This document shows, in pieces, positions 13,756-30,667 of a stretch of DNA of 40,016 nt; position 1 is the stretch's first letter; every line of letters starts with the position of its first letter. Under the pieces are notes generated by a model. That model had not been told where the DNA came from. It saw only the letters and a list, made by a program, of their open reading frames with translations, and made no database searches. Position numbers and translations under genes: made by a program. The stretch is from Acidobacteriota bacterium (GTDB lineage Bacteria; Acidobacteriota; Terriglobia; Terriglobales; SCQP01): assembly GCA_027459505.1 (NCBI GenBank), contig DAIDIE010000033.1, positions 1 to 40,016 of the forward strand, written 5' to 3'.

Positions 13756-14202
13756 ATGGACGCTGGAACCAAGCAGGCGAAGGTGGGGCCGGGAATCCCG
13801 AAGGGTTCCACGCAGCTCTGGACTCATGCCATCGTTCCTAACGCGGTCGGGCTGTTTGTCGCAGCGAAGGCCTCTTTTGGCGCCTATCACGATCTAGCCA
13901 GTGCGTTTCCCGCGTTTTTCTATTACATGGGCGCAACGCTGGGCGGAGCGTACCTGTGTGCTCTCTTTGCTTATGGGTTCGGTGCCTTGGGCAGAATGGG
14001 CGAGCGCGGCAGGGTTTGGTTTACAGGGATGATCTTCTGGCTCGCGACATTCGCTCTTGCCTACGCCTATCTGCAGGGCCGGCCGGCGGTTCTGCCGTTT
14101 CCATACTATCGAGATGCCGGTTCATATCGCCCCTGGCTTGAAGGTTTGGGGACTCTCCCGCTTGTCATTCCCTACTTTCTTTACAAACTCAGCCGTGAGT
14201 AG
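13756..14202 (+). CDS. hypothetical membrane protein
   Basis: This is a 148-residue protein of unknown function with about four hydrophobic segments: IVPNAVGLFVAAKASFG, FFYYMGATLGGAYLCALFAYGFGAL, VWFTGMIFWLATFALAYAYL and GTLPLVIPYFLYKL. I placed the start at the ATG at 13756 because a promoter-like sequence lies immediately upstream; a longer frame reaches 13684 but would include that promoter. The last 22 bases overlap, tail to tail, the end of the minus-strand glycosyltransferase gene. I do not recognise the family. Confidence 0.6.
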   Translation: MDAGTKQAKVGPGIPKGSTQLWTHAIVPNAVGLFVAAKASFGAYHDLASAFPAFFYYMGATLGGAYLCALFAYGFGALGRMGERGRVWFTGMIFWLATFALAYAYLQGRPAVLPFPYYRDAGSYRPWLEGLGTLPLVIPYFLYKLSRE

Positions 14203-16952
14203 ATCAACTGCGCCGCCTCGTCCCATCCGCTAGCGAGCCCCGTCAGGGCGGAGTGGCGGGGGGCCAGAGGCGGAGGCTGCATGGCCCACTCGCTCAGTGC
14301 CTCGGCCAAGGCCCTGGGGTCGCCCGCGGGAATGACGCGGCTGTTCTGGCTATCTCCGACGAGTTCCGGCAACCCTCCACAATCGGTGACTAATAACGGA
14401 AGGCCGGCGGCCTTGGCGAGGTGGCCCACACCGCTCTGCGAGGCGGCGCGGTAGGGGAGCACGGCAAAATCAGCGAGACGGAGATACCAGGCGATTTCCG
14501 CTGTCGGAATGTAGCTGGGTATCCAGCGCAGGAAGGGCGCGACTCCCGCCTGTTCCGCGCGCATTTGCAGGCTGTTGAGCGGAAAGTCCGCGGCGGGAAA
14601 CCCGGCGATCACAATGACGGGCCGATGCTTTTCCTGGAGCAGGGCCAGGGCTTCAATGAGGACGTCAACACCTTTGTATTTGGTGAGCGTTCCTAGTAAC
14701 AACCCGGTGGTGGCGCGGGGGGGAATCTTCAACCGCCGCCGCAGGCCGGGATCGTTTGGCGAGGCGGCTTGCAGTAGCAGGTTCTGATTGCCATGCGGAA
14801 TGGCAATGGCGGGGCGGCCCAGACCGCGCCAGAAGGAGTGGCGCAGGTTTTCGCCGTGCACAAAGACGGCGTCGAGTTCCCAGGCGAGCCGCCGCCGCCA
14901 GCCGGGCTGGCGAGTGAGAGTTCCCGGATTTGCGTGCAGGCGTTCAAAGGCTTCCACGTTATGCCAGATGTCGGCGACGCGCACGCCGCGACAGAGCCGC
15001 TGAAGCGCCAGGACGAGAAGCCGGTCACAACGATGCTCGAAATCACCCAGTAAAACCCAGCCGGGACGGGTACGCACGGTTTGCAGGACCACTTGCGCGC
15101 AGGCAATCGTGTAGCGCAGGCCGTGCATGAGGCGGCGCAGCGGCGCCGGGAGGCGGCTCGGCGCGCGCGGGTTCCAGGTCAGCAGGCGCGCCAGCATCGT
15201 GCGGCCCTGAACCTGATCGGGAATGAATTCCGGGTTCCGGCCAGTGAGGAGAATGACCTCGCCTCCGGCATGCGCCAGCGCGGCGCTGAGCTGTACGGAG
15301 TAGTGATAAAGGCCCGCATGGGAAAACATTTCGACCATCAGCACGCGAATCGGAGTGCGGCGCGCTCCAGCCCGGGTTCCCGAATTGTTTCCATTGCAGG
15401 ACATCGTGGACGGTTCGGCTTTGAGCTCGGCGGCATTGCTTCCGGCAATGCCGTTTTGCGCTGCACGGGCGTGGGCGGCGGATGACAAGGGAGACGAAAA
15501 GGGAATGACGTTGCCGAACCTGAGCACACCCCCACGCATGGGCAGCGGCAGGTGCGGAGCGATCGTGGACGGCGATTCCGGCGAATGAGGGTCGGACTGA
15601 CTGGAGTTTTCCCGCCCCGGCGATTCCGGGCTCGATAAGTCCGGGCCTGCCACCAGAGGGGCGGCCGCTTGTGAGCTCTGTTGCGAGGCTGCTAGCGAAC
15701 CCGGGATCGGAGACGGGGCGCCAGTGGCGAGCGAGGGGGCGAGTTCGCTCGCCTGCCCAGTTCCGCGCGAGCGAATGGCAGCCGGCATGAGCAGCAGGTT
15801 GCGAGCCGGCGTGCGACCAGCAACCTGGTCCGGCTTGCGCTGCAGCAGCCGCTCGTATTCGGCAAACAGGCGGTCGCGCCATGCGGAGGCGGAATAGGTG
15901 GAGAGAAAGCGCTGGCGCCCGGCTTGCGTGAAGCGCTTCCGCAAGGTGGGCGTTCGCAGCAGCTTGACGCAGCCTTCGGCGAACGCGCGTGGGTCTGCGG
16001 GGGGCACCTGAAGGCCGGCCCCCTGAATCACTTCGCTGATGGCGGGCAGAGTGGTCGTGACAATGGGAACGCCGGCCGCCATGGCCTCCATGAGGGCGGT
16101 AGGCTGGGCTTCGCGCTCGGAGGGAAACAGGAACACGTCCGCCGCTTCGAGCCAGCGTTCGATATCCGCGCGGCCGCCCGCGAGATACAACTCGTGGCTG
16201 AGGCCTAACCGGTCGCGCTCCGCTTTAAAACTCTGAAAATCCGGCCCGCCGCCCACCCAGATGAAACGAGCTTGGGGTAAGGCAGTGCGCACGCGGGGAA
16301 TCGCTTCCAGCAGCGTTCGCCAGCCTTTGGGCTCGCGCACCACGGCGACGGTGAGCAAAACGATGTGGTCGAGACTGAAACCGCATTGATGCAGGATTTC
16401 CTGGCGGCTGCGCGGGGCGGCGGGAGGCAAGGTGACGCCGTTGGGGACGAGGCGTAGTTTGGTGGCGGGAACGCCGAAGCGGCGCCAGGCTTCGGCCTGT
16501 TCGCCTCCAACGGCAAAGACCGCATCGCAATTGCGGCGCAGGGCCCGGCGCTCCAGGCGCTCGAGCAGGCCGTTGCGGAGTCCGCCGCTGACATCCGGCA
16601 TGACATGCAGCGTGGCGACGTTGGGGATCTGATCGCGGCGGGCGAGTTCGCTTCCCCAGAGTGTGGCGTAGCGCAGGTGGCAGTGGATAAGGTCCGGTTG
16701 AAGATGATGAATGATCCGCCGCAGCCGCTGGTAGGCGTGGTGATCGCGAAGATGGCGGGCGCGCAGGCGATACCAGTAGAGGCCCGCACCTTCCAATTCG
16801 TTTTCCAGCATCTCGTTGCCCGCAGTGGCGTCACGCAGGCTGACCAGGTGAACTTCCCAGCCCGGGTGCAGACCGCGGCGGAAGAGATCCGCCGCCAGCC
16901 GCTCGGCGCCGCCCAGCGAGAGCGAGTCGATGATCCATAGCAGGCGTTTCAT
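14181..16952 (-). CDS. tandem GT-B glycosyltransferase fusion protein
   Basis: This 923-residue polypeptide carries two glycosyltransferase family-4-like GT-B domains. Domain 1 (about 1-372) has the DSLSLGGAERLAADL start, NGV donor-fold motifs, VAVVREPKGW and the EX7E pair E281/E289 in SEREAQPTALMEAMAAG. Domain 2 (about 533-923) begins VLMVEMFSHAGLYHYS and contains HGNQN, GTLTKYKGVDVLIEAL, ADFAVLPY and GLPLLVTDCGGLPELV. The segment between them (about 373-532) is rich in Ser, Pro, Ala and Gly and looks disordered. They probably add sugars during repeat-unit synthesis on the cytoplasmic face. The gene starts 8 bp after the ligase stop. A second start inside the linker (Met517) has no Shine-Dalgarno sequence, so I treat it as one gene; an assembly or sequencing fusion remains possible. 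Confidence 0.85.
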   Translation of the reverse strand: MKRLLWIIDSLSLGGAERLAADLFRRGLHPGWEVHLVSLRDATAGNEMLENELEGAGLYWYRLRARHLRDHHAYQRLRRIIHHLQPDLIHCHLRYATLWGSELARRDQIPNVATLHVMPDVSGGLRNGLLERLERRALRRNCDAVFAVGGEQAEAWRRFGVPATKLRLVPNGVTLPPAAPRSRQEILHQCGFSLDHIVLLTVAVVREPKGWRTLLEAIPRVRTALPQARFIWVGGGPDFQSFKAERDRLGLSHELYLAGGRADIERWLEAADVFLFPSEREAQPTALMEAMAAGVPIVTTTLPAISEVIQGAGLQVPPADPRAFAEGCVKLLRTPTLRKRFTQAGRQRFLSTYSASAWRDRLFAEYERLLQRKPDQVAGRTPARNLLLMPAAIRSRGTGQASELAPSLATGAPSPIPGSLAASQQSSQAAAPLVAGPDLSSPESPGRENSSQSDPHSPESPSTIAPHLPLPMRGGVLRFGNVIPFSSPLSSAAHARAAQNGIAGSNAAELKAEPSTMSCNGNNSGTRAGARRTPIRVLMVEMFSHAGLYHYSVQLSAALAHAGGEVILLTGRNPEFIPDQVQGRTMLARLLTWNPRAPSRLPAPLRRLMHGLRYTIACAQVVLQTVRTRPGWVLLGDFEHRCDRLLVLALQRLCRGVRVADIWHNVEAFERLHANPGTLTRQPGWRRRLAWELDAVFVHGENLRHSFWRGLGRPAIAIPHGNQNLLLQAASPNDPGLRRRLKIPPRATTGLLLGTLTKYKGVDVLIEALALLQEKHRPVIVIAGFPAADFPLNSLQMRAEQAGVAPFLRWIPSYIPTAEIAWYLRLADFAVLPYRAASQSGVGHLAKAAGLPLLVTDCGGLPELVGDSQNSRVIPAGDPRALAEALSEWAMQPPPLAPRHSALTGLASGWDEAAQLIYSRLSL

Positions 16953-16960
16953 ACGCGAGA

Positions 16961-18520
16961 TCAGGCGGCGCCGGTCGCAGGCGCCGCGGAGTGCGGAAGG
17001 ACTTCCCCAACCCCGGGTTCGTCCGGCCGGAACTGATCGGGACCGGAAACGGTCTGAGCGAGATGCGCCAAACGCTTTGACAGCAGGACGGCGCAGCCCG
17101 CAAGAGCCAGCAGCATAAGAAAGTGGCGGAAGAAGGCGGCGTGCAGAAACACCGAGAGCAGCAGATAGGTGAGCATGGAGAGTTCCAATCCCCAGGTCAA
17201 GCGCGACAGGGAATCAGCTCCGAGATGGGCAAAGCGGTGGCGGGCGCGCCGCGAGGCGTAGAGCACAGTCCACAGCAGGAACAAGAACGCGGCTGCGCCC
17301 AGTAGCCCCGTCTCCGATAGCACCTGCGTGTAGAGGCTGTGTGGATCGCGCACCTCATTGCGGATATCGGTGCCGAGCATGGCGCTGTAGCGCTCGTAAT
17401 TGGCGCTGAAGCCGCCCGCACCCACGCCGGTGATGGGGTGGTGACGGAACATTAATAACGCGGTGAGAACTTCGTTTTCGCGGCCGCGGAAAGACTGGTC
17501 CTGAATCGAGCTGACGTTGGAGACATGCTTCAACTGCGTCAGGGTCAGCATGCGCTGCCAGTAGTTGGAGGGCAGGATAGCGAGCACAACCAGCACGCCC
17601 GCAATTTCCACCCCGGTAATAAGTTTGCGGCGCGGATGCCACAACAGCATCAGGGCGGCGAAGACCAAGCCAATGAGGGCGGCGCGCGAGTAGGTAAAAA
17701 TCGCGGCGGCAAGGCAGAGGGCCACGCTGGCGCCGGCCAGCAGCCGGCGCAGAAGCGGCCCTTTCTCCAGCAGCACGATCACCGCCAGGGGAAGCACTGC
17801 CACCAGTACCAGAGCCAGGAAGTTGGGATCGCCAAGGGCGCCGCCCGGGCGGTAGCCCATCACCCCGGGGGCGGTTTCCGCCCACTCCATCTTGCCCAGC
17901 CCCCAGAACTCGAAGTGGCTGCCAGTCAGACGTTGAATGACCGGGGGCAGGGCCAGCAGGGCCGCGGCGGCCAGCAGCGCATCCACGCCCAGGCGCAGCA
18001 GGCGCGGGGTGCGGAGCAGGTTGACCACCAGATAAATCATGACCAGATCTTTGCCGTATTCCCACAAGCTGGCGGTAACCAGCCGGGGAAAGCCGGTACT
18101 GGCGAAGGTGGCGATCTGCGCCGCCCCGTAAAACAGCAGGGCGAGCGCAAACGGCCAACGCCAGGGGCGGCGGCGCGCGTTGGTCAGATCGCGCAGCAGC
18201 AACCCAATCAACGTCAGTGCCAGAATGGAGCGTAGAACCCAGCTAAATCCGGTCTGTTCGGTGATGATGTCAGAGAAATTCCAGAAGCCCACCAGGAGCA
18301 GCGCCAGGCTGCCCCACTCGGGACGCATCAGGATGGTTGCCGTGGCTGCGGTGATGGCGCCGGCAAGCAGCACGGCGAGCGCGGGGTGAGCGGGAACGCG
18401 GGCCGCGAGCAACAACATCGGCGAGGCGCACAGCAGGGCCAAAATGGCGATCGTGAAATCGCCGAGCAGGTGGGGGCGGCGCAGGGGCGCCGCGACGGGA
18501 GGCAGCGCCAGGGTATTCAT
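16961..18520 (-). CDS. O-antigen ligase / polymerase family membrane protein
   Basis: This 519-residue polytopic membrane protein has about 11-13 hydrophobic helices. A large periplasmic loop follows the segment near GENEVLTALLMFRHH and carries ITGVGAGGFSANY and RDPHSLYTQVLSETGLLG, which is the Wzy_C-type signature with a conserved His. Such proteins polymerise or ligate lipid-linked glycans in the periplasm. The C-terminal 40 residues after the last helix are Pro/Ala-rich. The start overlaps the stop of the sugar transferase gene by ATGA, so the two are probably translated together. Confidence 0.88.
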   Translation of the reverse strand: MNTLALPPVAAPLRRPHLLGDFTIAILALLCASPMLLLAARVPAHPALAVLLAGAITAATATILMRPEWGSLALLLVGFWNFSDIITEQTGFSWVLRSILALTLIGLLLRDLTNARRRPWRWPFALALLFYGAAQIATFASTGFPRLVTASLWEYGKDLVMIYLVVNLLRTPRLLRLGVDALLAAAALLALPPVIQRLTGSHFEFWGLGKMEWAETAPGVMGYRPGGALGDPNFLALVLVAVLPLAVIVLLEKGPLLRRLLAGASVALCLAAAIFTYSRAALIGLVFAALMLLWHPRRKLITGVEIAGVLVVLAILPSNYWQRMLTLTQLKHVSNVSSIQDQSFRGRENEVLTALLMFRHHPITGVGAGGFSANYERYSAMLGTDIRNEVRDPHSLYTQVLSETGLLGAAAFLFLLWTVLYASRRARHRFAHLGADSLSRLTWGLELSMLTYLLLSVFLHAAFFRHFLMLLALAGCAVLLSKRLAHLAQTVSGPDQFRPDEPGVGEVLPHSAAPATGAA

Positions 18521-19332
18521 TTGCCCCCCTTACCGGTGACCACCACGCGCACCGTCGCCCATAGCAGCCAAAGGTCCAGGCCCAGGCTGTAGCCGCGGAC
18601 GTAGGCGACATCGAGGCGCAGTCGCTCGTCAAATTCCGACTCGCCACGCGCCAGCACTTGCCACAAGCCGGTCATGCCGGGCAGCACCTCCAGCCGCTCG
18701 GTATGCCAGGGCTGATAGGTGTCGCTGGAAAAAGAGGTGGGGCGCGGCCCGACCAATGACATGTCGCCGCGCAAAACGTTCCACAGTTGTGGCAGCTCGT
18801 CCAGGCTGCAGCGGCGCAGCCAGCGGCCGACGGCGGTCACACGCGGGTCCTGGGAAATCTTAAAATCGGGCCACGCCAGTTCGTTGAGCGCCTGCAGTTG
18901 CGGCTTGAGCTGTTCCGCGTTCTGCACCATGGTGCGCAACTTCCACAGGCGGAAGCGGTGTCCGTGGCGACCAGTACGCCACTGGCAGAACCAGGGCGCG
19001 CCGGGCGATTCCAGACGGATGAGCAGCATGGCAACGCCGACCAGCACAGCGGCCAAGGGAAGCAGAAGGCCGCCAAGGCAAAGATCCAGAGCCCGTTTGA
19101 CGTACTGTTCCGCCGGGCTCAGTCCGGTGCGGTTGCGGAGCAGCGCGCGCTCGCGCAGCCGTTGCAGCAACGCCTGGCATTCGGTTTCGCGCATGCCGCT
19201 GCAGCCGAGGTGATGGGCGGCTGTTTGGGCCGCCGCTGTCCCGGTGGGAACCCCAGCCGGTTCGCTGGCTGCCGGGGAGGGGAGGACGGGCGGATTGGTA
19301 AGGGTGGAGCCGCTGGCCAGATCCAGTTTCAT
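18517..19332 (-). CDS. initiating sugar-phosphate transferase (bacterial sugar transferase family)
   Basis: This 271-residue enzyme transfers a sugar-1-phosphate from a nucleotide sugar to undecaprenyl phosphate and so starts repeat-unit assembly. After a variable N-terminal region it has one hydrophobic segment (RALDLCLGGLLLPLAAVLVG, about residues 74-93). The catalytic core follows with WKLRTM, SLDELPQLWNVLRGDMSLVG, PRP and PGMTGLWQV. It lacks the four N-terminal helices of full-length WbaP-type proteins. The ATG at 19332 is chosen because AAGGAGG lies just upstream; it also overlaps the preceding stop by ATGA. A longer frame to 19545 would add an Arg/Pro-rich non-conserved stretch. Confidence 0.9.
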   Translation of the reverse strand: MKLDLASGSTLTNPPVLPSPAASEPAGVPTGTAAAQTAAHHLGCSGMRETECQALLQRLRERALLRNRTGLSPAEQYVKRALDLCLGGLLLPLAAVLVGVAMLLIRLESPGAPWFCQWRTGRHGHRFRLWKLRTMVQNAEQLKPQLQALNELAWPDFKISQDPRVTAVGRWLRRCSLDELPQLWNVLRGDMSLVGPRPTSFSSDTYQPWHTERLEVLPGMTGLWQVLARGESEFDERLRLDVAYVRGYSLGLDLWLLWATVRVVVTGKGGK

Positions 19333-19751
19333 GCCGCCTCCTTGCCTCCGGCACGCGCGGCGCGGCCGGGATGGGCGAGTTGCTGCCGCAGACTCTCCAG
19401 CGTGAGGCCCTGGGCGGGGAAGTGGGCCAGGGAGGCCTCCAAACGCCAGCCCTGGCCGCCGAGGTGTTGCAGCCGGCGCAGCACGGGAGCGGCGTCGTCG
19501 GTTTCTTCCAGCAGGAGCCAGAGCACGCGCATGCGGGGTTGCCACCAGAGCAGATCTCCAATGCGCAAGCGCGCCGCGATTTGCAGCGCGAGACGGTGGG
19601 AGGAGACGCGCGCCATGCCGGGCAGCGGGCGGCAGCGCAGCCGCACCAACACCATGGGCTTGCGGCCGCGGCGGGCGCGGCTGAATAGGCGCAGCAGCCC
19701 CGCCGCGGCGGCGCGCTCATCGGCGAGTACGGGTTTGGGGCCGCCGCTCAT
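19329..19751 (-). CDS. small protein resembling a degenerate GGDEF domain
   Basis: This is a 140-residue protein between the BY-kinase-like and sugar transferase genes, with ATGA overlaps at both ends. Residues about 53-122 follow the order of a GGDEF domain: LQIAARLRIGDLLWW, then RVLWLLLEETDDAAPVLRRL, then ASLAHFPAQGLTLESLRQQL. These correspond to the usual R-x-GD, vLLpeTd and vGiA-yP-dG-T blocks. The GGDEF signature itself is absent; PRMRV stands in its place. It is therefore unlikely to make c-di-GMP but might be a structural or sensory domain controlling the polysaccharide machinery. The start at 19751 has GGAGG upstream. The fold assignment is by eye and needs a profile comparison. Confidence 0.65.
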   Translation of the reverse strand: MSGGPKPVLADERAAAAGLLRLFSRARRGRKPMVLVRLRCRPLPGMARVSSHRLALQIAARLRIGDLLWWQPRMRVLWLLLEETDDAAPVLRRLQHLGGQGWRLEASLAHFPAQGLTLESLRQQLAHPGRAARAGGKEAA

Positions 19752-21919
19752 TGCGCCTCCTGGGGCGCAACGCTGATGAACGTGGAGAGGCGGGGCGCGG
19801 CGCGCAGCCCGCGCAATCCCGGCGCGGACAGGTCGGCGCCGTTGAGCACGGTCCCCAGCAGCGGGGCACCCGCCCGCGCCAGGTCTTCCGCCCAATTGGC
19901 GAGATCCTGCTGGCGGGTAAAGCCCCACCGCGCCACCAACACCACCGCATCACTGAGCCGGGAAAGCAGCAGCGCGTCTCCGCTGCGGCTGGCGGCGGGA
20001 GAGTCGAGCAGCACGTAATCGTATTGCCCGGTCCAGACGGCTTTCTGCTCGGCAATCTTGCGCGGCAGCATGGTGGCCGTGCCGTTGCCGTTGGGCACAT
20101 ACAGTTCCAGGTTGGGTCCCAGCCCCTGGACTTCGCCGCCAGCACTGGGGGCGCTGAGCAAGGTGGCACAGCCGGGGCGCAGCGGGTCGGCATCGACGAT
20201 CAGGGTGCGATAGCCGGCCTGGGCCAGCGCCCGCCCCAGATTGCAGACGGTTTCAGTCTTGCCCTCTCCGCTGTGGGTACTGCTGACCACGATCATTTTG
20301 TGTGGCGCCGGGCAGCGCGCGGCAACGCGCGCGGCAAGCTTGGCATAGTAATCCGCGAGTGGGCCGTTAAGGTTAGCCGCGCCCGCGGCGAGCAGCCGGG
20401 TGCCGCGCAGGTTGGAACGCAGAGCTGTGGGTGACGACGGCGCCAGCGGAATGACGCCCAGCGAGGGCAACAGTTCCGGTGTTTCGCCATCCTCAGGGCC
20501 AGTGACCACGCCTTGCCAGCGCTCGCGCACAAGCGCGGCCCCGATGGCAAAGGCAGCGCCCAGCAGCACGCCCAGCAGCAGGTATAGCGGACGATTGGGG
20601 TACTGCGGCAACAGCGGAACTTGCGCGCGGTTGAGCGGGCGCAGGTTGGCGCTGGGCAGACTGGCGGCCAGGGTGGCCTCGCTCAGCTTGTCGTGCAGAT
20701 CGTTATACACGGCGGTGGCGAGATCGGCCTGCCCTTTCAGGTTCTGGTAACGGATTTCCGTGGCGCTCTCGCCGGCGGCGCGGCGGCGCAGTTGGCGGAC
20801 CAGGGCGGTCAATTCCGCCTCGTGCAGCGCTTCCTGCTGGACCCGGCCGCCGAGTCCCTGCCGCAGTTGCACGACGGCATGGGCCAGCGCCGCCTGGCTG
20901 AGGTGCAATTGCTGGCGCGCATCGGTGACGGCGGGGAAGTTGCGGCGGTAGGTGGCGCGTAGCTCGTCAAAGTGCGCCTGGGCGGCTTCTACCGCGGCGC
21001 TGGCGCTGTTGAGCTCAGGTGTGCGGTAAGCCTCCGGAAGCTGTTGCGGATCGCCCTGGAACGCTTGGAGCGCGGCATTGTCGGCGAGCCGCTGCGCCTC
21101 GGTGGCGGTCAACTCGCGATTGGCGAGATCAAGCTGTTCCAGCAGCACATTTTGCTGCCCGCCGGGAACCACCAGCGGGGTGTAAGCATGTTGTTGCTGG
21201 AAGGCAACCAGCGCGGTCTCGGCCTGCTGGCGCTGGCGCGCCACATCCTGCAATACGCCGTTCAGCCATTGGCTCATCTGCACGCCGGCGGCGAGGCGGC
21301 GCTGCTGGGCATAGGCCCCGAAAGCGCTCATGGTCTGGTTGACCACCGCCGCCGCCAGCGCCGCATCCTGGGCGCCGTAGCTGACCAGAACGGTGCGGCT
21401 GAGCTTATCCGGCGCGGCGCTGAGCTTGTTGAGGAAAATTCCTTCCGCAATCTGCAGCCGCAGCGCCGGGCTGGCTTGCTCGTGCTTTTTCGCCAGGCTG
21501 GCGGCCAGATCGTCCAGCGAGCGCTTGATCTGCGGATCGTTCTGCTCGAGCTTGAGTTGGGCGATCACGCGGGCCGCCACCGGCTGGCTGTGCAGCACCG
21601 TGAGCTGGGTCTGGATGTCGCGATCCTCATCACTGGGACTGTAGCTGCCACCGGTTTCGTGCAGTTGCGTCATGCGTTGCGGCGGCCGGTCGAGCACCAA
21701 TGAGCCAGTCGCCTGGTAATACGGACGGATGAGCAGGGCGACCGCGGCGGCCAGCAGCACGAAGGTGGCAAATACAATCAGCGCCAGCCCGCGGTGGCGG
21801 TAAAGGGCGGTGCCAAGGCGGCGGGCCCAGGGCGTGCGCCGGGTTTCTTCCTCAAGCCAGCGTTCCACGCCGGCGCGTCCGCGCAGCGGCCCGGAGTAAG
21901 GGGCGGTTATCAGTTGCAT
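19748..21919 (-). CDS. Wzc-type polysaccharide co-polymerase / BY-kinase-like protein
   Basis: This 723-residue inner-membrane protein controls chain length and export in Wzx/Wzy systems. It has a Wzz domain starting with a transmembrane helix (about 45-64), a long periplasmic coiled-coil region (about 200-420), and a second helix (about 446-464). The cytoplasmic ATPase domain has Walker A SSTHSGEGKT (546-555), Walker A' LIVDADPLRP (573-582) and Walker B YDYVLLDSPA (633-642). The C-terminus (RLSTFISVAPQEAQ) lacks the tyrosine cluster that BY-kinases autophosphorylate. The ATG at 21919 has AAGGA about 8 bases upstream. It is followed by the GGDEF-like gene with an ATGA overlap. Confidence 0.92.
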   Translation of the reverse strand: MQLITAPYSGPLRGRAGVERWLEEETRRTPWARRLGTALYRHRGLALIVFATFVLLAAAVALLIRPYYQATGSLVLDRPPQRMTQLHETGGSYSPSDEDRDIQTQLTVLHSQPVAARVIAQLKLEQNDPQIKRSLDDLAASLAKKHEQASPALRLQIAEGIFLNKLSAAPDKLSRTVLVSYGAQDAALAAAVVNQTMSAFGAYAQQRRLAAGVQMSQWLNGVLQDVARQRQQAETALVAFQQQHAYTPLVVPGGQQNVLLEQLDLANRELTATEAQRLADNAALQAFQGDPQQLPEAYRTPELNSASAAVEAAQAHFDELRATYRRNFPAVTDARQQLHLSQAALAHAVVQLRQGLGGRVQQEALHEAELTALVRQLRRRAAGESATEIRYQNLKGQADLATAVYNDLHDKLSEATLAASLPSANLRPLNRAQVPLLPQYPNRPLYLLLGVLLGAAFAIGAALVRERWQGVVTGPEDGETPELLPSLGVIPLAPSSPTALRSNLRGTRLLAAGAANLNGPLADYYAKLAARVAARCPAPHKMIVVSSTHSGEGKTETVCNLGRALAQAGYRTLIVDADPLRPGCATLLSAPSAGGEVQGLGPNLELYVPNGNGTATMLPRKIAEQKAVWTGQYDYVLLDSPAASRSGDALLLSRLSDAVVLVARWGFTRQQDLANWAEDLARAGAPLLGTVLNGADLSAPGLRGLRAAPRLSTFISVAPQEAQ

Positions 21920-21990
21920 GGCAAATATCCTTGGTAAGCGCCGCACTGGAGTGGGCGCTGTTTCACGCAGCGGCCTCGCGGGAGGCGGTT

Positions 21991-23136
21991 CTAGAAGTGG
22001 GTGAACGCGGCGCCTTCAATGCGCCAGCGTGTGGCGGCGCCGATGAAGTCCAGCACCGTAAGTCCGACTTCTTTGGATTTGGACGAGGGCACCAGCACGA
22101 TGTCATCCGCTTGCAGGGGCAGGTCGGGGGCGCGATTTTCCCGGATACGGCTGAGATCGCAGAGCAGGATGCGGCGCTGGTCGCCGCTGCGGCGCAGCAC
22201 CCGCACATGATGGATGTCGCTTTGCGGCAGGCCGCCGCCGGCGCGGCTAAACGCCTGGGCGAGAGTCAGGCCAGGGCTGAGCGGCATGCTCCCGGCGTGG
22301 TTGATTGCGCCGCTGATATAGATTTCGTCGGTAGGGGGCACCTCGACGCTGTCGCCGGGGGCCAGTGCTAAATCCAGGCGCGGGTTGCGCAGCAGATCGT
22401 TGGTGGCAATGGTGCGCAGCACCGTCTGCACGCGCAGGTGGGCTGGTTTTCCCGGCGTGACCTGAACGGGGCTGGCGTGCAGCACGTACAAGCTGGCCCC
22501 ATCGCGGGCCGGGTCGAGCCCGCCGGCCAGGGCCAGTGCCTGCCGCAGGGTGAGCTGACCGCTATAGGCGTAGACGCCGGGACGGGGCACGGCGCCGGTT
22601 ACGGAAATGGTGCGGCTGTTGTTTTCCAACACGCGCACGCTGACGCGCGGCGAACGCAGCATGCGGCCATACAGAGGCGTGAGCTGTTGCTCCAGTTGTG
22701 CCGGGGTTTCTCCGGCGGCGGCGACCGCGCCGAGGAAGGGCAAATCGAGCGAGCCATCGGCGCCGACCCGCGCCGTGCCGCTCAGTTGGGGCTGGCCGAG
22801 GACCTCGACATCGAGCAGGTCGCCGGGGCCAACCGGGTCGGCCGCGCCCGCACCCCAGGTCTGGATGACCCCGGAACTGGGCAAACTGGGCAGCGGCTTG
22901 ATTGCCGCGACGCTGGAACGCAGCGGAAGCTGTGCCAAACCAACGCCCGTGCCAATGGCAAAGCTGAAGGCGGCAGCCAACGCCATCAGCAGCGCAGTGG
23001 ATAAGTGAGTAGACCGGTGGCCCGAGGCTGGCCCCTCCTGGGTTTGGAGGGTACCCGGCAAGGCGCAAAAAACGCCACTCGGTCCGCTGAGAGCGAGACC
23101 ACCGGGAAGGGGGAGGGAAACGCGAAAAGTCTTCAT
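21991..23136 (-). CDS. polysaccharide export protein (Wza/OPX-like, SLBB domains)
   Basis: This 381-residue protein belongs to the outer-membrane polysaccharide export family. The Poly_export domain has GPGDLLDVEVLGQPQLSG and DGSLDLPFLGAVAAAGETP. Two SLBB domains follow (ISVTGAVPRPGVYAYSG and IYISGAINHAGSMPLSPG). A hydrophobic segment ALLMALAAAFSFAIGTGVGLAQ is at about residues 48-70, so the N-terminal leader before it is unusually long. The ATG at 23136 has AGGAG five bases upstream and is preferred. An ATG at 23169 would add 11 residues and overlap the previous gene by ATGA, as at other junctions in this operon, so it is a real alternative. It partners the Wzc-like protein to move polymer across the envelope. 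Confidence 0.9.
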   Translation of the reverse strand: MKTFRVSLPLPGGLALSGPSGVFCALPGTLQTQEGPASGHRSTHLSTALLMALAAAFSFAIGTGVGLAQLPLRSSVAAIKPLPSLPSSGVIQTWGAGAADPVGPGDLLDVEVLGQPQLSGTARVGADGSLDLPFLGAVAAAGETPAQLEQQLTPLYGRMLRSPRVSVRVLENNSRTISVTGAVPRPGVYAYSGQLTLRQALALAGGLDPARDGASLYVLHASPVQVTPGKPAHLRVQTVLRTIATNDLLRNPRLDLALAPGDSVEVPPTDEIYISGAINHAGSMPLSPGLTLAQAFSRAGGGLPQSDIHHVRVLRRSGDQRRILLCDLSRIRENRAPDLPLQADDIVLVPSSKSKEVGLTVLDFIGAATRWRIEGAAFTHF

Positions 23137-23165
23137 GCCATCTCCTATGTGCTGCGGCGCGTCAG

Positions 23166-24032
23166 TCATGCGGCGGGGGCGAGGCCATTTCCGCTACCGC
23201 TGTGCACCGGCTCCAGGGTTGAAATTGCAGGGCGGGAATTGAGGAGCGCGGGCCGTGGCGCCGCCTGGGCGCGCACTTGCAGGTTGAAGGCCTGCACCGC
23301 CTCCAGCAGTGGCGCGCCCCCAAACTGGCGCCCCACGGCAATCAGAGCGGCCAAGTCTTTGGGCAGGCAGCGGCCGCCGAAGCCGCGCTCGTCGGTAACC
23401 AGGGTGTGGGAGCGGTTGACGCGGCCATCCAGCAGCCAGAGTTCGCGAACCTCGTTGTAGTCGACGCGCAGACCCTGGGCGAGCTCATAAATCTGGTTGA
23501 CGAAAGCCACCTTGGTGGCGAAAAAGCAGTTTTCCATGTATTTCACCAACTCCGCCGTGCGCGCCGACGTGATGCGGTATTGCGGCGCGGGGCCGAGTAC
23601 CTCCTGGTAAACCCGCACCACATGTTGCGCCGCGGCCGGCTCCCCTCCCACGATGAGGAACCCGTGCGTCTCAATCTGTTTGAAGGGGTGCCAGGTGGTT
23701 TCGCCAACATATTCCGGACTAAAACAAATGCTTTTTCCCGTTTTGGTCACCAGCCGGTCCACCGTCCCAGGAGGAACTGTGGACTTAATACAAATGGGCG
23801 CTTGCAGCCAACCCACGACGTCTTCGATGGCGTCCAGCTCGGCGGCGCCGTCGGGACCTTGCGGGGTAGGAACCGCCACCAGGGCGAGATCGCAGGCATT
23901 AATGCGCTGGCGTTGTTCAGCGCCGTTGCAGCCGTCGCGAAATTTGTCATAGATGGTGACGCGTTCCGTGCCGAACAGCGCCGCCAAAGCGTGTCCCACT
24001 ACCCCATAACCGACGATGCCTACACGTTTCAT
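23166..24032 (-). CDS. UDP-glucose/GDP-mannose dehydrogenase family protein, short form
   Basis: This 288-residue protein has the N-terminal Rossmann domain (GYGVVGHALA, 8-17), KSTVPPGTVDRL (83-94), SPEYVGE (105-111) and the central domain with NCFFATKVAFVNQI. The catalytic cysteine is Cys222 in RGFGGRCLPKDL. UDP-glucose or UDP-ManNAc dehydrogenases usually have about 430 residues; here the C-terminal nucleotide-sugar-binding domain is missing, and the protein ends in an unconserved tail. It may oxidise a nucleotide sugar to the uronic acid for the polysaccharide, but activity without the C-terminal domain is uncertain. The ATG at 24032 has AAAGGAG 11 bases upstream, a rather long spacing. 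It is the first gene of the tight export operon. Confidence 0.85.
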   Translation of the reverse strand: MKRVGIVGYGVVGHALAALFGTERVTIYDKFRDGCNGAEQRQRINACDLALVAVPTPQGPDGAAELDAIEDVVGWLQAPICIKSTVPPGTVDRLVTKTGKSICFSPEYVGETTWHPFKQIETHGFLIVGGEPAAAQHVVRVYQEVLGPAPQYRITSARTAELVKYMENCFFATKVAFVNQIYELAQGLRVDYNEVRELWLLDGRVNRSHTLVTDERGFGGRCLPKDLAALIAVGRQFGGAPLLEAVQAFNLQVRAQAAPRPALLNSRPAISTLEPVHSGSGNGLAPAA

Positions 24033-24291
24033 GCTGTAATCGACTCCTTTCAGCGAGCATTTTGCCCGCCGCACTCCCGAGTATCCCCAGCCGGGTGGGC
24101 AGAGAACAATCAGGCATAAGTGACAAAGTAGCTGGGTTATGCTGCCGGAGCGCCGAGTTAGCCCGCCAGCGTTGCGCTGGAGGATGCTGCTGAAGGAGTA
24201 GGCGGCTGACCGGAGATCAATCAGCCCCTCGCTATTCACTGGAAAAAGGCGCGCTCCCAGGGCTTCGCACGCGTTCTCCGGGCACCCAGCA
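24033..24291. other. intergenic region upstream of the polysaccharide operon
   Basis: This probably holds the promoter of the dehydrogenase-export operon on the minus strand, but I see no convincing -35/-10 pair. A short perfect hairpin (CCAGCG, TTG loop, CGCTGG) is at 24166-24180. No gene is apparent. Confidence 0.4.
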
Positions 24292-26013
24292 TTATTGAGA
24301 AGTGGCGAACGCCCGCGCCCATTTCCACTCCGAGCCCAAAAAAAGTCTGTGCCTGCCGTTGCCGTTGAATTCAGCGCTCCAGACCCGGTTGCACCGCCGG
24401 GCGTAGGCGGAAAAGGCTTCCGGCGCGGGCAGCTCTCCAAACCAAATCCGGCCCTGGTTGGGAAAACTGGCGACAATCCAGTCGCTGCTGACAGAGAGGG
24501 TTATGGAAGGCTGGCGACGCAACAAATCCTCAATGATATAGGGGTTGCTATAGAAGCCGAGATAACAAAGCCTTCCGGAGGAACGCCCGGCGTGGTCCTG
24601 CAATACCTGGCTGAGGTGGCGCATTGCCACTGCCTTCCGGTTGAGCAATTGCGCGCTGGAGAGGAGGTTTCCGGAGGGGAAAAGCGTCACGTTGGAAGAA
24701 GCGGGGACGGCCCAAAACGTGACAGCCATGGCGAGCGCGGTCGCCGGCGCCAATGCGGGTATGGTGTGCTGGGGGCGGCTGTTTTGGACTCGTAGGCCTT
24801 CCGTGGTGGATCGCGAGCCGTCTCGCGCGCTCTCGCTGAAGGTTTGGGATGCATCCCGCCGGTGAAACAGAGCACGAAGGCTGAGCTGCTCGAGCGCCCA
24901 CCAAAGAATCGGCACAAAACAAAGTGCGACGTGGCGGACATTATTACCGCGGATCAGAAACCAGAAGGTGAGGGGAGGAGCGCTCCAGAAACAGGCTAAA
25001 ACTGCCAAACAAAGTGAGCGTTGCCGCTGGGAGGCAGTTTTGTGAGCAAAAACGAACCACGCCAAGGCGACGGCAAGCAAGAGCCAAAAGCCCACGCCTG
25101 CAGCGAAGGCTACAGGCGCTAATTGCTTCAGCAGGGCGAGGCCACGCGGCCATTGCAAAAATGAGGCCACCGTCGCTCCCGCTTTGTGCTGTGTAGCGGA
25201 TAGGGAGGCGCTCAGAAGCCGTTGCCGCAGCGTCAGGAAAAGGACAGCGCTCAATCCCCACAAAGCGGCGGAAACGACCAAGGGCCGCAGCCACAGACGC
25301 CAGCGGTGAACGGGGACGGGCGCGGGTTTATCAAGCAGCAGCGCAACGCCGGCGAAGGCGCCGCAATACAGCACGGCGTCGCTTTTTAGCAGCAGCGCCG
25401 CCGTGAGCGCGGCGGCGCTCAGCGCGGCCCAGGCGTATTGCAGTTGCGGACGGGAGCGCCGGGCTGTGGCGCGCCAGAACTCCGCCCAGGCCGCAAGCGC
25501 GAGCAGCAACGCGGCGTAGGAGAGCATTTGCGGGTGGGCTTCTACGCTCAGCCACCAAAACGCCGGAGAAAACACGGTCAAAAGTGCGGCGGCATAGGCC
25601 ACCGGCCGGGTCGTGATCCGCGTTCCCAACCAATACAATGCGAATGTGGCCCAGAGGCTGCTCCAGGCGCTCCACTGCTGCAGATGCGCGGCGAGAGCGG
25701 ACAAGTCCCAATGGTAAAGGCGCGTGAAGAACGTGGCGAGGGCGTAGTAGGCGGGCGAGAAAATGGCGCCATAAGCGATATGCGCTCCTGGTCCAAAGCG
25801 TACCCACTGCGTGATGCCAATCAGAAAACGGGAACAGTCGGCCTCTCCCGCGGCCAGCGGAAGCAGAATGAAACGAGAGGCCGCGGCGGTAGCCAAAAGC
25901 GCCACCGGTGCGGACCAGGAGGTGAGGCGAGCGCGTGTCTTGAGACGCCACGCCGGGACCGATCCGGCGGGCATCGATTGAGAGGACGACGCTGGGCTAG
26001 TGGTACTGGCCAT
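24292..26013 (-). CDS. multi-pass membrane protein, GT-C glycosyltransferase-like
   Basis: This 573-residue protein has about 10-11 hydrophobic helices up to about residue 440, then a soluble C-terminal domain of about 130 residues (RRQPSITLSVSSDWIVASFPNQ). The layout (long first periplasmic loop with ADCSRFLIGITQWVRFGPG, then many helices) resembles dolichyl-phosphate-mannose-dependent glycosyltransferases of the GT39/ArnT group, but I cannot point to a definite catalytic motif beyond an acidic residue in the first loop. It follows the GHL15-like gene by 2 bp and precedes the export operon, so a role in decorating the polysaccharide is plausible. Confidence 0.7.
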   Translation of the reverse strand: MASTTSPASSSQSMPAGSVPAWRLKTRARLTSWSAPVALLATAAASRFILLPLAAGEADCSRFLIGITQWVRFGPGAHIAYGAIFSPAYYALATFFTRLYHWDLSALAAHLQQWSAWSSLWATFALYWLGTRITTRPVAYAAALLTVFSPAFWWLSVEAHPQMLSYAALLLALAAWAEFWRATARRSRPQLQYAWAALSAAALTAALLLKSDAVLYCGAFAGVALLLDKPAPVPVHRWRLWLRPLVVSAALWGLSAVLFLTLRQRLLSASLSATQHKAGATVASFLQWPRGLALLKQLAPVAFAAGVGFWLLLAVALAWFVFAHKTASQRQRSLCLAVLACFWSAPPLTFWFLIRGNNVRHVALCFVPILWWALEQLSLRALFHRRDASQTFSESARDGSRSTTEGLRVQNSRPQHTIPALAPATALAMAVTFWAVPASSNVTLFPSGNLLSSAQLLNRKAVAMRHLSQVLQDHAGRSSGRLCYLGFYSNPYIIEDLLRRQPSITLSVSSDWIVASFPNQGRIWFGELPAPEAFSAYARRCNRVWSAEFNGNGRHRLFLGSEWKWARAFATSQ

Positions 26014-26015
26014 GG

Positions 26016-27158
26016 TTATTGCGAGGGTTGTTCGGAATTTGTTGTGAGCGTGTTTCCGGAGCAGGTATCAGATGAGAAAAGTTGGGGATACGGCCAGTAG
26101 TTGCGGTAGTCCGCATCATGGGCATCCGCGTAGCGGAAATACAGGTTGGGGCTGGCCAGACTGCAATAGGCCCGCAGCGCGTCGCTCAGACGCTCGGGTT
26201 CGCGGCGACCGCCCTGGACGACGGCAATGACGCTTTTGCCGTGGGCTAAGGCCAAACGGATATTGGTGAACTGCCGCTTGCGCTGCGCGGGATCGAGCGG
26301 GGCGTTGCGCCAGCCAAGGGCGAAGTCTTCGACCATCATGCCGTTCAGGAATGGGAGATAGGGTGCCCACCCGCCGCCATCATCGTGCACGAGGTTGGCC
26401 CAAAGTGGAACATTCCTGGGTAGATGGCTGCGTATAAATGCGAGATAGCCGCGCATGGCGGCTTTCCATTGCCGGGCAGAGGAGTACTCGCGGACACCGC
26501 CTGGATTCAACGGGTCCTGAAAAAGGCCATCGCGGCTGAGCGCAACGTTGTCCAGAAAAAAACCGTCGTAACCGAGCGCACGCTCGGCCAGCAGGCGTGA
26601 GACGACGAAGCGGCGCCAGCCGGGGCTGGCCGGGTTCATGTAATAGATGTTGCGGAGAATGCCTCCCGCGGAGTGCCAGGAGGTGTAAAGGCGCTGTCCC
26701 TTGCGGTTATGCAGGAACCAGCTTTCATGCGGGTGAACGGCGCGGCAGAACAAATCGGGCTGGTTGACAACAGTACGTTGGTAGGGGGTGTAACCGCGCC
26801 GGCAGGCTTGCGACTTGTATAGATAAGGACCAGGACCTTCCGCCTCATTGGCCGCCAGGCATTGCAGGATCAGTCCGGTGTAGCCGTCCTGACGAAGCCG
26901 GCGTGCGTAGGACTCGTCGTTGTGCATGAGGATGATCAGCGCCATGTGACGCGCCAGAAAGTGCGCAGAGGTGCCGTCCTGGGGCGGCTTGTAGAAGTAG
27001 GCAAGCGGAATGTGGCCTGAGGCGGATGCACGGGCATCCGCCTTTGCGGGAAAGGAGGCTTGCGGAGGCAACGGTACGGCGAGGCCCAGCAAGACGGTGA
27101 TCGGCAACACGGTGATCCACGAACCAAGCTGGCGGCGAGCCGCGCGCATGCACTTCAT
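26016..27158 (-). CDS. exported GHL15-like putative glycoside hydrolase
   Basis: This 380-residue protein has an N-terminal signal or anchor segment (WITVLPITVLLGLAVPLPPQ). A TIM-barrel-like domain follows, with GYTGLILQCLAAN, GWRRFVVSRLLAERALGYDGFFLDNVALS (Asp203) and NGMMVEDFALGW (Glu277). These match the pattern of the hypothetical glycosyl hydrolase 15 / GH114-related families, where such acidic residues sit at strand ends. It probably cuts or trims polysaccharide outside the cytoplasm; the substrate is unknown. The start at 27158 lacks a good Shine-Dalgarno sequence; an ATG at 27149 is an alternative. It probably heads the transcript with the membrane protein gene 2 bp downstream. Confidence 0.7.
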   Translation of the reverse strand: MKCMRAARRQLGSWITVLPITVLLGLAVPLPPQASFPAKADARASASGHIPLAYFYKPPQDGTSAHFLARHMALIILMHNDESYARRLRQDGYTGLILQCLAANEAEGPGPYLYKSQACRRGYTPYQRTVVNQPDLFCRAVHPHESWFLHNRKGQRLYTSWHSAGGILRNIYYMNPASPGWRRFVVSRLLAERALGYDGFFLDNVALSRDGLFQDPLNPGGVREYSSARQWKAAMRGYLAFIRSHLPRNVPLWANLVHDDGGGWAPYLPFLNGMMVEDFALGWRNAPLDPAQRKRQFTNIRLALAHGKSVIAVVQGGRREPERLSDALRAYCSLASPNLYFRYADAHDADYRNYWPYPQLFSSDTCSGNTLTTNSEQPSQ

Positions 27159-27344: not shown

Positions 27345-29834
27345 TCAGATTCCGTAAGTGCGGCGCAGCAGGCGCAGGACGCGCGCATGCAATTCCGGGA
27401 CGGCGAACGGTTTGCCCATGTAGTCATCGGTGCCGACGAGGAAACCCTGGGTGCGGCTCTGCTCCTCGACGCTGGCGGTGAGCATCATGATCGGGATGAA
27501 CGCGGTCTGCACCTTGCTGCGCAGTTTTTGACAGACCTCGTAACCGCTCATGTCCGGCATTTGCACGTCGAGCAGGATGAGATCGGGTTTGTTGGCTTCC
27601 GCGCGTGCCAGGGCCTCGGCGCCATTTTCCGCTTCAATCACTTCCGGCGCAAAGGGCAGTTCCTCAAGCACCTTGGCAGTAATGCAGCGCATAACCTCGT
27701 CGTCATCCACCACCATGATGCGCGGCTTGCGGCCACCGAGTTCTGCGAATTCATGACGCGGCTCGCCCAGTCCGGCGGGAGCGGGGGGCGGGACGGGAAC
27801 TGCGGGAGTGCTAGCTGGGACAGGTTTGGCCTCAGGGGCGGCGCTCGCAGCCGCGGCGCTGGCGGCCTGGGCGGGGACCTGCGCAATCGCCGCCGTGCTG
27901 GGCAAATTGGCAGGCGTGCCGCAGACGGGGCAGATGCGCCAGCCGCTTTGGAGCGTCTGGCCACAATTGCCGCACGATAAAGAGCTTCCCTGTTGACCAG
28001 AAACGCCTGCTCCCGCACCGCCCGCCGCAGTGGTTTGGGCGGACCCGGAAGTGAGATTCGGCGCGGCCGAGGCTCCGGATAGGGCTTGATGTGCCGCTCT
28101 TTGCGGGTCGACCGCCCAGTCCAGTTCGGTGGCATCGACCTGCAGCACGCGCAGTACTTCATCCAGAGAGGTAAGGCCGGCGTAGACCTTGTTGAGCGCG
28201 TCCTGCAGGAGGAAGGTGGTGCCGCTGGCGACGGCGGCGGCGCGCAGCGCGCCTTCGCCAGCGCGGTTGCGGACAAGTTCGCGAAATGAGGGGGTGAGGC
28301 GTAGCAGCTCAAAAACGCCGATGCGGCCGCGGTAGCCGCTATGGCGGCAGTTCTTGCAGCCTTTGCTGCGGTACACCGGTGCGTTGCTGAGGGCGGCCCC
28401 GAGGCGTTCGCGTTGCGCGGGGGTCGGAGTGGCTTCGACGCGGCATTCGGGACACAGTTGTCGTACCAGGCGTTGCGCCACGACGAGGTTCAGCGCGGAA
28501 CTGATGAGCGGGGCTTCCAGTCCCAGGTCCATCAGGCGCACCAGGGTGGCAATGGTGCTGTTGGTATGAAGACTGCTCAGCACGAGGTGACCGGTGAGCG
28601 CTGCCTGGAAGGCGATTTCGGCGGTTTCCAGATCGCGGATCTCACCGACGAAGACAACATCCGGATCCTGGCGCAAGATGGAGCGCACCGAAGCGCCAAA
28701 GGTCAGTCCGGCGCGAGCGTTCACCTGCACCTGATTAAGGCCGGGCAGTTGGAACTCGATGGGGTCTTCCACGGTAATGATGTTGAGGGAAGGGTCGCGC
28801 TTGTGCTGCAACATCGAGTAGAGGCTGGTGGTCTTGCCGCTGCCGGTGGGCCCAGTCACAAGAATCAGTCCCTGGGGCTGACTCAGAGCGTGGAGAAGCT
28901 TGCTTTGATCGGCGGGGGCGAGGCCGATGCGCGGCAGTTCCGGCAATTGGCGGATGGTGCCCAACACGCGCATGACGATCTTTTCGCCGAATTGTGTGGG
29001 CAAGGTGGAGACACGCAAGTCCACGTCTTCCTGGCCAACGGCGATCTTGATCCGTCCATCCTGCGGGGCGCGGCGTTCGGTGATATCGAGATTGGCGAGT
29101 ACCTTGATGCGGGAAATCAGCGCGGGCTGCAGCCATTTGGGCAGCTGCATGAACTCCTGCATGAGGCCGTCAATGCGCGTGCGCACCTGAACCAGCGTGG
29201 CGGTGGGCTCGATGTGGATATCGCTGGCGCCCTGGGTGATGCCGTCGTGAATGATCAGGCTGACCACCTTGACGACCGGCGCGGTCTCCGGCGATGGTTC
29301 CACCTCGTCAACGGGTGCGTCGAGCACGCGGACGTCATCGCTCTCCTGCACGTTCTTGAGAAAACTCTCCAGCCATTGTTCCGGTGCGTAGGAGCGGGTG
29401 ATGGCGTCGCTGAGGTCGGTGCGCGTGGCGACCACGGGCTGAATGCGGCAACCGGTGGCGAACTCGAGGTCCTGGAGAACGCCGAGATCGGTTGGATCGG
29501 GCAGCGCCACGACCAGCGCGGGGCGGCGGCGGGCGGCGCCGGTTCCCACTTCGGCTTCTTTGCGAATGGGGAGCGCCAGGTGTTTGCGGGCGACGGCTTC
29601 CGGAATCGCCTTGATGAGCTCGGGGTCGATGTTGAGCGTGGCCAGGCGCATGTAGGAGAGCTGCAGCCCGCGCGCAATGGCTTCCGCCAGGCGCACCTCA
29701 TCGACGTGGTAGTCGCTGAGGAGGACCTCCCACAGCGGGCGGCGGCTGGACTGTGCCGTCTCGAGCGCGGCAGCGATCTGGGCGTCGTCGAGGAAGGCTG
29801 TCTTCTTGAGAATTGAGGCGAATTGCCGGCTCAT
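27345..29834 (-). CDS. PilB/GspE-type secretion ATPase fused to zinc ribbon and response-regulator receiver domain
   Basis: This is an 829-residue cytoplasmic motor ATPase for type IV pili or type II secretion with extra C-terminal domains. An MshEN-type N-domain (about 15-150) is followed by the T2SSE ATPase with Walker A GPTGSGKT (328-335), Asp box ITVEDPIE, Walker B and VGEIRDLETA, and His box HLVLSSLHTN. The tetracysteine is CPEC (461-464) and CKNC (493-496). After about residue 575 come a Gly/Ala/Ser linker, a zinc ribbon (C621, C624, C635, C638), an Ala/Pro linker, and a REC domain (about 704-826) with DDD 710-712, phosphoacceptor Asp756, Thr786 and Lys808. All key REC residues are present, so it is likely phosphorylated by a histidine kinase. 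The Shine-Dalgarno sequence AGGTGG precedes the ATG at 29834. No other pilus genes are nearby. Confidence 0.93.
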   Translation of the reverse strand: MSRQFASILKKTAFLDDAQIAAALETAQSSRRPLWEVLLSDYHVDEVRLAEAIARGLQLSYMRLATLNIDPELIKAIPEAVARKHLALPIRKEAEVGTGAARRRPALVVALPDPTDLGVLQDLEFATGCRIQPVVATRTDLSDAITRSYAPEQWLESFLKNVQESDDVRVLDAPVDEVEPSPETAPVVKVVSLIIHDGITQGASDIHIEPTATLVQVRTRIDGLMQEFMQLPKWLQPALISRIKVLANLDITERRAPQDGRIKIAVGQEDVDLRVSTLPTQFGEKIVMRVLGTIRQLPELPRIGLAPADQSKLLHALSQPQGLILVTGPTGSGKTTSLYSMLQHKRDPSLNIITVEDPIEFQLPGLNQVQVNARAGLTFGASVRSILRQDPDVVFVGEIRDLETAEIAFQAALTGHLVLSSLHTNSTIATLVRLMDLGLEAPLISSALNLVVAQRLVRQLCPECRVEATPTPAQRERLGAALSNAPVYRSKGCKNCRHSGYRGRIGVFELLRLTPSFRELVRNRAGEGALRAAAVASGTTFLLQDALNKVYAGLTSLDEVLRVLQVDATELDWAVDPQRAAHQALSGASAAPNLTSGSAQTTAAGGAGAGVSGQQGSSLSCGNCGQTLQSGWRICPVCGTPANLPSTAAIAQVPAQAASAAAASAAPEAKPVPASTPAVPVPPPAPAGLGEPRHEFAELGGRKPRIMVVDDDEVMRCITAKVLEELPFAPEVIEAENGAEALARAEANKPDLILLDVQMPDMSGYEVCQKLRSKVQTAFIPIMMLTASVEEQSRTQGFLVGTDDYMGKPFAVPELHARVLRLLRRTYGI

Positions 29835-30430: not shown

Positions 30431-30507
30431 GGGCGATTAGCTCAGTTGGTTAGAGCGTCTGCCTTACAAGCAGAAGGTCATCCGTTCGAGCCGGATATCG
30501 CCCACCA
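30431..30507 (+). tRNA. tRNA-Val (anticodon UAC)
   Basis: This is a 77-base cloverleaf. The acceptor stem GGGCGAT pairs with ATCGCCC, the D-loop has AGCTCAGTTGGTTAGAGC, the anticodon loop is CTTACAA with anticodon TAC, and the T-loop is GTTCGAG. The CCA end is encoded. It lies 83 bp upstream of tRNA-Asp and is probably co-transcribed with it. Confidence 0.96.
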
Positions 30508-30590
30508 TTTTTCCGGCCGGGGAGCCAGTTTGCGCGGTGCCGTCCAGGACCGCCACAAAGCGCGGCGGGGTGGTAGCGCCGTTCAGATGC

Positions 30591-30667
<77 letters not shown>

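Follow-up and report, generated by a model that had tools for sequence, protein, structure and literature searches.

A PilB-like ATPase with a C-terminal zinc ribbon and a receiver domain in Acidobacteriota

Architecture of the ATPase and its locus

The analyzed window is an entire contig of 40016 bases from an Acidobacteriota bacterium, so the view of the gene surroundings stops at the window ends. The following features, all on the minus strand, were distinguished.

27345..29834 (-), PilB-like ATPase with C-terminal zinc ribbon and receiver (REC) domain, 829 amino acids (aa) (ORF, Pfam, homologues)
29379..29663 (-), MshEN domain, residues 58-152 (Pfam, E 2.7e-18)
28149..29288 (-), T2SSE ATPase core, residues 183-562 (Pfam, E 6e-130)
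27912..27980 (-), zinc ribbon C621/C624/C635/C638 (cysteine pattern; matches the second of the two ribbons of relatives)
27378..27719 (-), REC domain, PhoB/OmpR-like, residues 706-819, phosphoacceptor D756 (Pfam Response_reg, E 3.4e-26)
26016..27158 (-), GHL15 glycoside-hydrolase-like gene, the next gene downstream, 186 bp from the ATPase gene and between it and the exopolysaccharide genes (Pfam)
14181..24476 (-), exopolysaccharide cluster: GT4, Wzy_C, Bac_transf, Wzz/tyrosine-kinase-like, Poly_export, UDP-sugar dehydrogenase (Pfam)

According to the ORF listing, the 829-aa reading frame (27345-29834, minus strand) is uninterrupted from its ATG to the stop codon. A preliminary description of this DNA had proposed that the ATPase continues into a zinc ribbon and a complete REC domain. 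This was borne out: the positions of the four ribbon cysteines and of D756 are exact, and the segment to which it referred (27345-27980) corresponds to residues 619-829. The zinc-ribbon matches at residues 620-641 (E about 4e-4) lie under the Pfam cut-off. The REC signature is complete, with the acidic pair D711/D712, phosphoacceptor D756, T786 and K808, and the domain matches PhoB chains at E 1.5e-20 in a PDB sequence comparison.

The protein shares MshEN and T2SSE domains, Walker A motif, catalytic Glu, His box and zinc tetracysteine with canonical PilB/GspE ATPases. Its ordinary PilB/GspE tetracysteine site (C461/C464/C493/C496) is also intact and distinct from the C-terminal ribbon. Such a zinc tetracysteine distinguishes assembly ATPases from retraction ATPases (PMC5061722). 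On the basis of the T2SSE core and this site, the predicted 829-aa protein is assigned to the PilB/GspE-type assembly ATPase family, and its best solved relatives in a sequence comparison are PilB chains (5zfr, 3jc8). Unlike canonical members, it bears the C-terminal ribbon and REC, lacks the c-di-GMP motif, belongs to a separate clade and scores under both curated equivalog cut-offs, i.e. 561.5 bits against 675.65 for TIGR02538 (PilB) and 538.4 bits against 630.25 for TIGR02533 (GspE). An AlphaFold model built from a six-row alignment had a pLDDT of 50, a quality too low for interpretation.

Pfam detected neither a histidine kinase nor any pilin, PilC or alignment-complex protein among the window proteins scanned. 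The earlier remark that pilus genes are not close thus holds for these proteins, and the canonical set sits on other contigs of the source genome: pilB, pilT and pilC-like genes lie together on contig C26, and pilM/N/O-like genes on contig C8 (both partly recognized by eye). A sigma-70-like promoter was not detected near the ATPase gene, and terminator-like sites there were not above chance.

The ATPase gene, the GHL15 gene and the exopolysaccharide cluster share one strand. This neighbourhood is absent from most relatives, and its occurrence after the ATPase gene may be a coincidence. Within the cluster, a 923-aa protein (14181-16952, minus strand) gives two matches to each GT4-type model and apparently comprises two glycosyltransferases in one chain. 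On the other side of the ATPase gene, tRNA-Val and tRNA-Asp genes (30431-30667, plus strand) are located between it and mreD-mrdA-rodA.

Conservation, distribution and descent of the fusion

A set of 14 homologues, i.e. the window protein and 13 other intact Acidobacteriota proteins with the same fusion, was aligned. K334 (Walker A), E398 (catalytic Glu) and H423 (His box) are invariant, as are the ribbon cysteines, D711, D756, T786 and K808, and the spacing of the ordinary tetracysteine (CXXC-28-CXXC). D712 is replaced by His in one of the 14 proteins. The REC domain matches the ATPase core in conservation, since the mean identities of the window protein to the other homologues are 0.64 and 0.57, respectively. 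REC is preceded by a long linker with little conservation (mean identity 0.19). Identities of the ATPase and REC parts are correlated (r 0.84) and so fit joint descent of the two domains. All 13 other members carry two zinc ribbons and the window protein only one; judging from the alignment, its first ribbon has been lost, with an Ala/Gly/Ser-rich stretch in its place.

In our mapping, the conserved dimer-face residues of PhoB (R91, D101, E111 and R115) have counterparts in the window REC (R794, D804, E814 and R818). R794, D804 and R818 are invariant in the 14 homologues, and E814 is present in 13. Overall, we take the fusion to be real and conserved, and it is probably functional.

A one-genome-per-species scan revealed five full-length relatives with about 50% identity and the same domain order, all from Acidobacteriota. 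In a class sample of 200 genomes, strong or partial matches were found in 13, leaving the source genome out of the count, and 11 contained the REC-bearing architecture; the wider phylum sample comprised 129 genomes. Among the 59 closest relatives searched, a few of them incomplete, the fusion was absent and only canonical PilB/GspE-type matches were obtained.

Two explanations were rejected. The 13 other intact homologues rule out an assembly or frameshift artefact, and the 11 class genomes with the same architecture rule out a fusion unique to the source genome. Recent transfer receives no support from composition, as the GC and GC3 of the gene resemble those of its neighbours. Given that the fusion was not found in the 59 close relatives searched, an older transfer or repeated loss may have taken place.

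When a tree was built from the ATPase region, ribbon-only and REC-bearing proteins fell into one group (17 rows, SH-aLRT 96), separate from GspE and from the canonical PilB of the source genome (contig C26), and a second tree was similar. Two ribbon-only proteins (L147, L148) come from the same class, and a third (L150), placed near the base, from a different family within the phylum. The grouping would be compatible with a single gain of REC followed by loss as well as with several gains.

REC-ATPase fusions were also seen in at least three other lineages, in a sample picked partly by query similarity that shows recurrence and not frequency. L189, from another Acidobacteriota family, and L179, from a genome labelled Gemmatimonadetes, carry a C-terminal REC, and in L184, from a genome labelled Actinomycetota (minus strand, 726-aa frame), REC is N-terminal to the T2SSE ATPase. 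These three resemble the window protein in the fusion of REC to the ATPase; unlike it, they have no ribbon and lie outside the REC-ribbon clade or are unplaced. A single clade of all C-terminal REC fusions, including L156 and L179, is disfavoured in the tree comparison without being rejected (p-AU 0.0506, long branches).

The arrangement had been called unusual, which is correct only in part: 11 of the 200 class genomes share the architecture, and other lineages have comparable fusions. A division of the fusion into two genes in relatives, named in advance as a ground for refutation, was half observed: in two Parcubacteria genomes (L024, 4415-4834; L025, 9719-10162), pilB and pilT flank a gene that encodes REC as a single domain. 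As for the possibility that the fusion is common and already characterized, no characterization was present in the papers searched. The freely accessible literature searched yielded no description of a PilB- or GspE-receiver fusion, and in a 2024 review of PilB both “receiver” and “fused” are absent (PMC11656802). PMC5013675 mentions an association of MshEN with REC, but a description of the window protein is absent from its main text. The fusion is thus of a recurrent kind, made from known parts, with a function undescribed in the papers searched.

Gene neighbourhoods and the N-terminal domain

A histidine kinase or response regulator gene is located within about 4 kb at 12 of the 14 REC-ribbon loci, the exceptions being the window locus and L144. 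Close histidine kinases were found in seven of ten genomes, compared with 0.77 expected (p about 1e-6); with the f8 family counted once, they were found in four of seven lineages (p 0.0015). In L010 a hybrid kinase gene ends 2 nt upstream of the gene encoding the fusion (pilB-REC), in L143 a divergent gene encodes an NtrC-type regulator with a REC-HD protein further away, and in L146 a convergent gene encodes a GAF kinase. In L007, L008 and L011, genes for DnaJ, a PAS kinase and a REC protein follow pilB-REC. The kinase of the source genome nearest to the neighbour kinase of L008 shares only 39% identity with it.

In one family, a gene encoding a fusion of REC with a metallo-beta-lactamase-like domain is located directly upstream of pilB-REC (L140, 6871-8103; L141, 4863-6077; L145, 9638-10873), at a distance of 15-40 nt. 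In L140 this gene is accompanied by a DnaJ gene directly downstream of pilB-REC and then by two kinase genes. Genes encoding DnaJ-domain proteins directly downstream of, or overlapping, pilB-REC were distinguished in five relatives (L007, 10425-11345; L008, 10446-11333; L011, 3931-4782; L140, 10586-11395; L141, 1591-2403). Their position recalls cyanobacteria, in which a DnaK/DnaJ system connects type IV pilus (T4P) motors with polysaccharide secretion (PMC9239167).

MshEN domains bind c-di-GMP through two tandem 24-residue RLG...Q motifs (PMC5013675). With MshE-type ATPases the window protein has in common the family of its N-terminal domain and the principle of an input built into the motor, which in MshE is c-di-GMP; the window protein is without the motifs, those in its residues 1-57, upstream of the Pfam MshEN match, being degenerate. 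A relaxed form of the 24-residue motif matched none of the 14 REC-ribbon proteins, and at least one copy was present in 30 of 37 other PilBs. The basal ribbon-only protein L150 keeps the relaxed motif. Neither of the two ribbon-only proteins of the class matched it, one of these sequences being perhaps N-terminally incomplete; motif loss therefore marks the clade and not REC alone. It is conceivable, and we propose it only tentatively, that the control input was exchanged in this Acidobacteriota clade, an N-terminal c-di-GMP sensor having decayed and a C-terminal phosphorylation switch having been added, inside a conserved module that comprises REC-metallo-beta-lactamase, PilB-REC, DnaJ and histidine kinases.

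Proposed mode of action and alternatives

The reading that we favour, with reasonable though far from full confidence, is that the window protein serves as an auxiliary extension ATPase for type IV pili and that phosphorylation of the REC domain it carries gates its activity. D756 would be phosphorylated by a histidine kinase whose gene lies elsewhere in the source genome but next to the ATPase gene in most relatives. REC would then pair or re-dock through its PhoB-type alpha4-beta5-alpha5 face (R794, D804, E814, R818), and this rearrangement would alter how the hexamer assembles, how fast it hydrolyses ATP or how it binds the PilC platform. The ribbon, together with the long and flexible linker, would act as a tether for REC. 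As pilin and platform genes are not adjacent to the window ATPase, the motor would probably serve the shared T4P machine of the genome, which is available given the canonical genes on C26 and C8. The putative pilus role rests on homology, as the ATPase gene has neither a pilin nor a platform gene linked to it, and this weighs against the reading. We infer the phosphorylation and its sign, the partner machine and the docking of REC.

Direct control by a histidine kinase, as the preliminary description put it, finds indirect support: REC is catalytically complete and conserved and the genes of relatives lie among kinases and regulators, but no kinase is near the window gene. On balance, a sensor probably controls the motor directly. 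Counting against the gated ATPase are the lack of a nearby kinase or regulator gene at the window locus and L144, the scores under both equivalog cut-offs, and the loss of the c-di-GMP motif in two ribbon-only relatives, which is hence not strictly tied to REC.

The protein might instead be mainly a signalling node, in which REC and the nucleotide state report the state of the pilus or envelope to another output, e.g. exopolysaccharide production, and no pilus extension is driven. In Myxococcus xanthus, PilB is described as having a signalling role for exopolysaccharide (PMC5544727), the window gene precedes an exopolysaccharide cluster of the same orientation, and the DnaJ genes of the five relatives recall the cyanobacterial connection. 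The polysaccharide neighbourhood is, however, unconserved and missing from most relatives, and every ATPase residue is kept, which a purely signalling role does not need; we consider this explanation rather unlikely. Still less probable, in our view, is that the ATPase powers a separate pseudopilus or secretion filament and not a type IVa pilus, the pilins of that filament being encoded at another site. Pilin-like genes (recognized by eye) adjoin the ribbon-only clade member L190 directly and lie within 1.5 kb of L147, but none were noticed near the REC-bearing members examined. The long, poorly conserved linker does not require tight coupling and would suit a passive REC, i.e. a phosphate sink or docking module that leaves the ATPase unaffected; this is very improbable considering that REC, including its PhoB-type dimer-face residues, is conserved to the same degree as the ATPase core.

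Gating by an attached receiver would have precedents in separate proteins, for which direct action of a receiver on PilB is established. EmvR, a single-domain regulator of Xanthomonas oryzae, reduces the ATPase activity of PilB by about 40% on binding it (PMC11973254), and PixE of Synechocystis is thought to bind PilB1 (PMC7690835). The likeness to EmvR lies in a receiver acting straight on the PilB ATPase, without a transcription step, the function of the window protein being predicted from sequence; EmvR is a separate regulator, whereas the window receiver is part of the ATPase chain. PixE, for which binding to the extension motor has been reported, is a CheY-like regulator and, unlike the window REC, a separate protein with a PATAN domain. 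By analogy, the simplest reading is that the REC-ATPase would exert within a single chain the kind of control represented by the EmvR-PilB or PixE-PilB1 pairs.

As far as is known, it is mostly separate adaptor proteins that convey two-component signals to pilus motors. With a motor that has its own receiver, one purified protein could show whether aspartate phosphorylation alone shifts the ATPase rate and the hexamer state. The clade also forms a natural series, from proteins with the c-di-GMP motif and without REC, through ribbon-only proteins, to those with both ribbon and REC.
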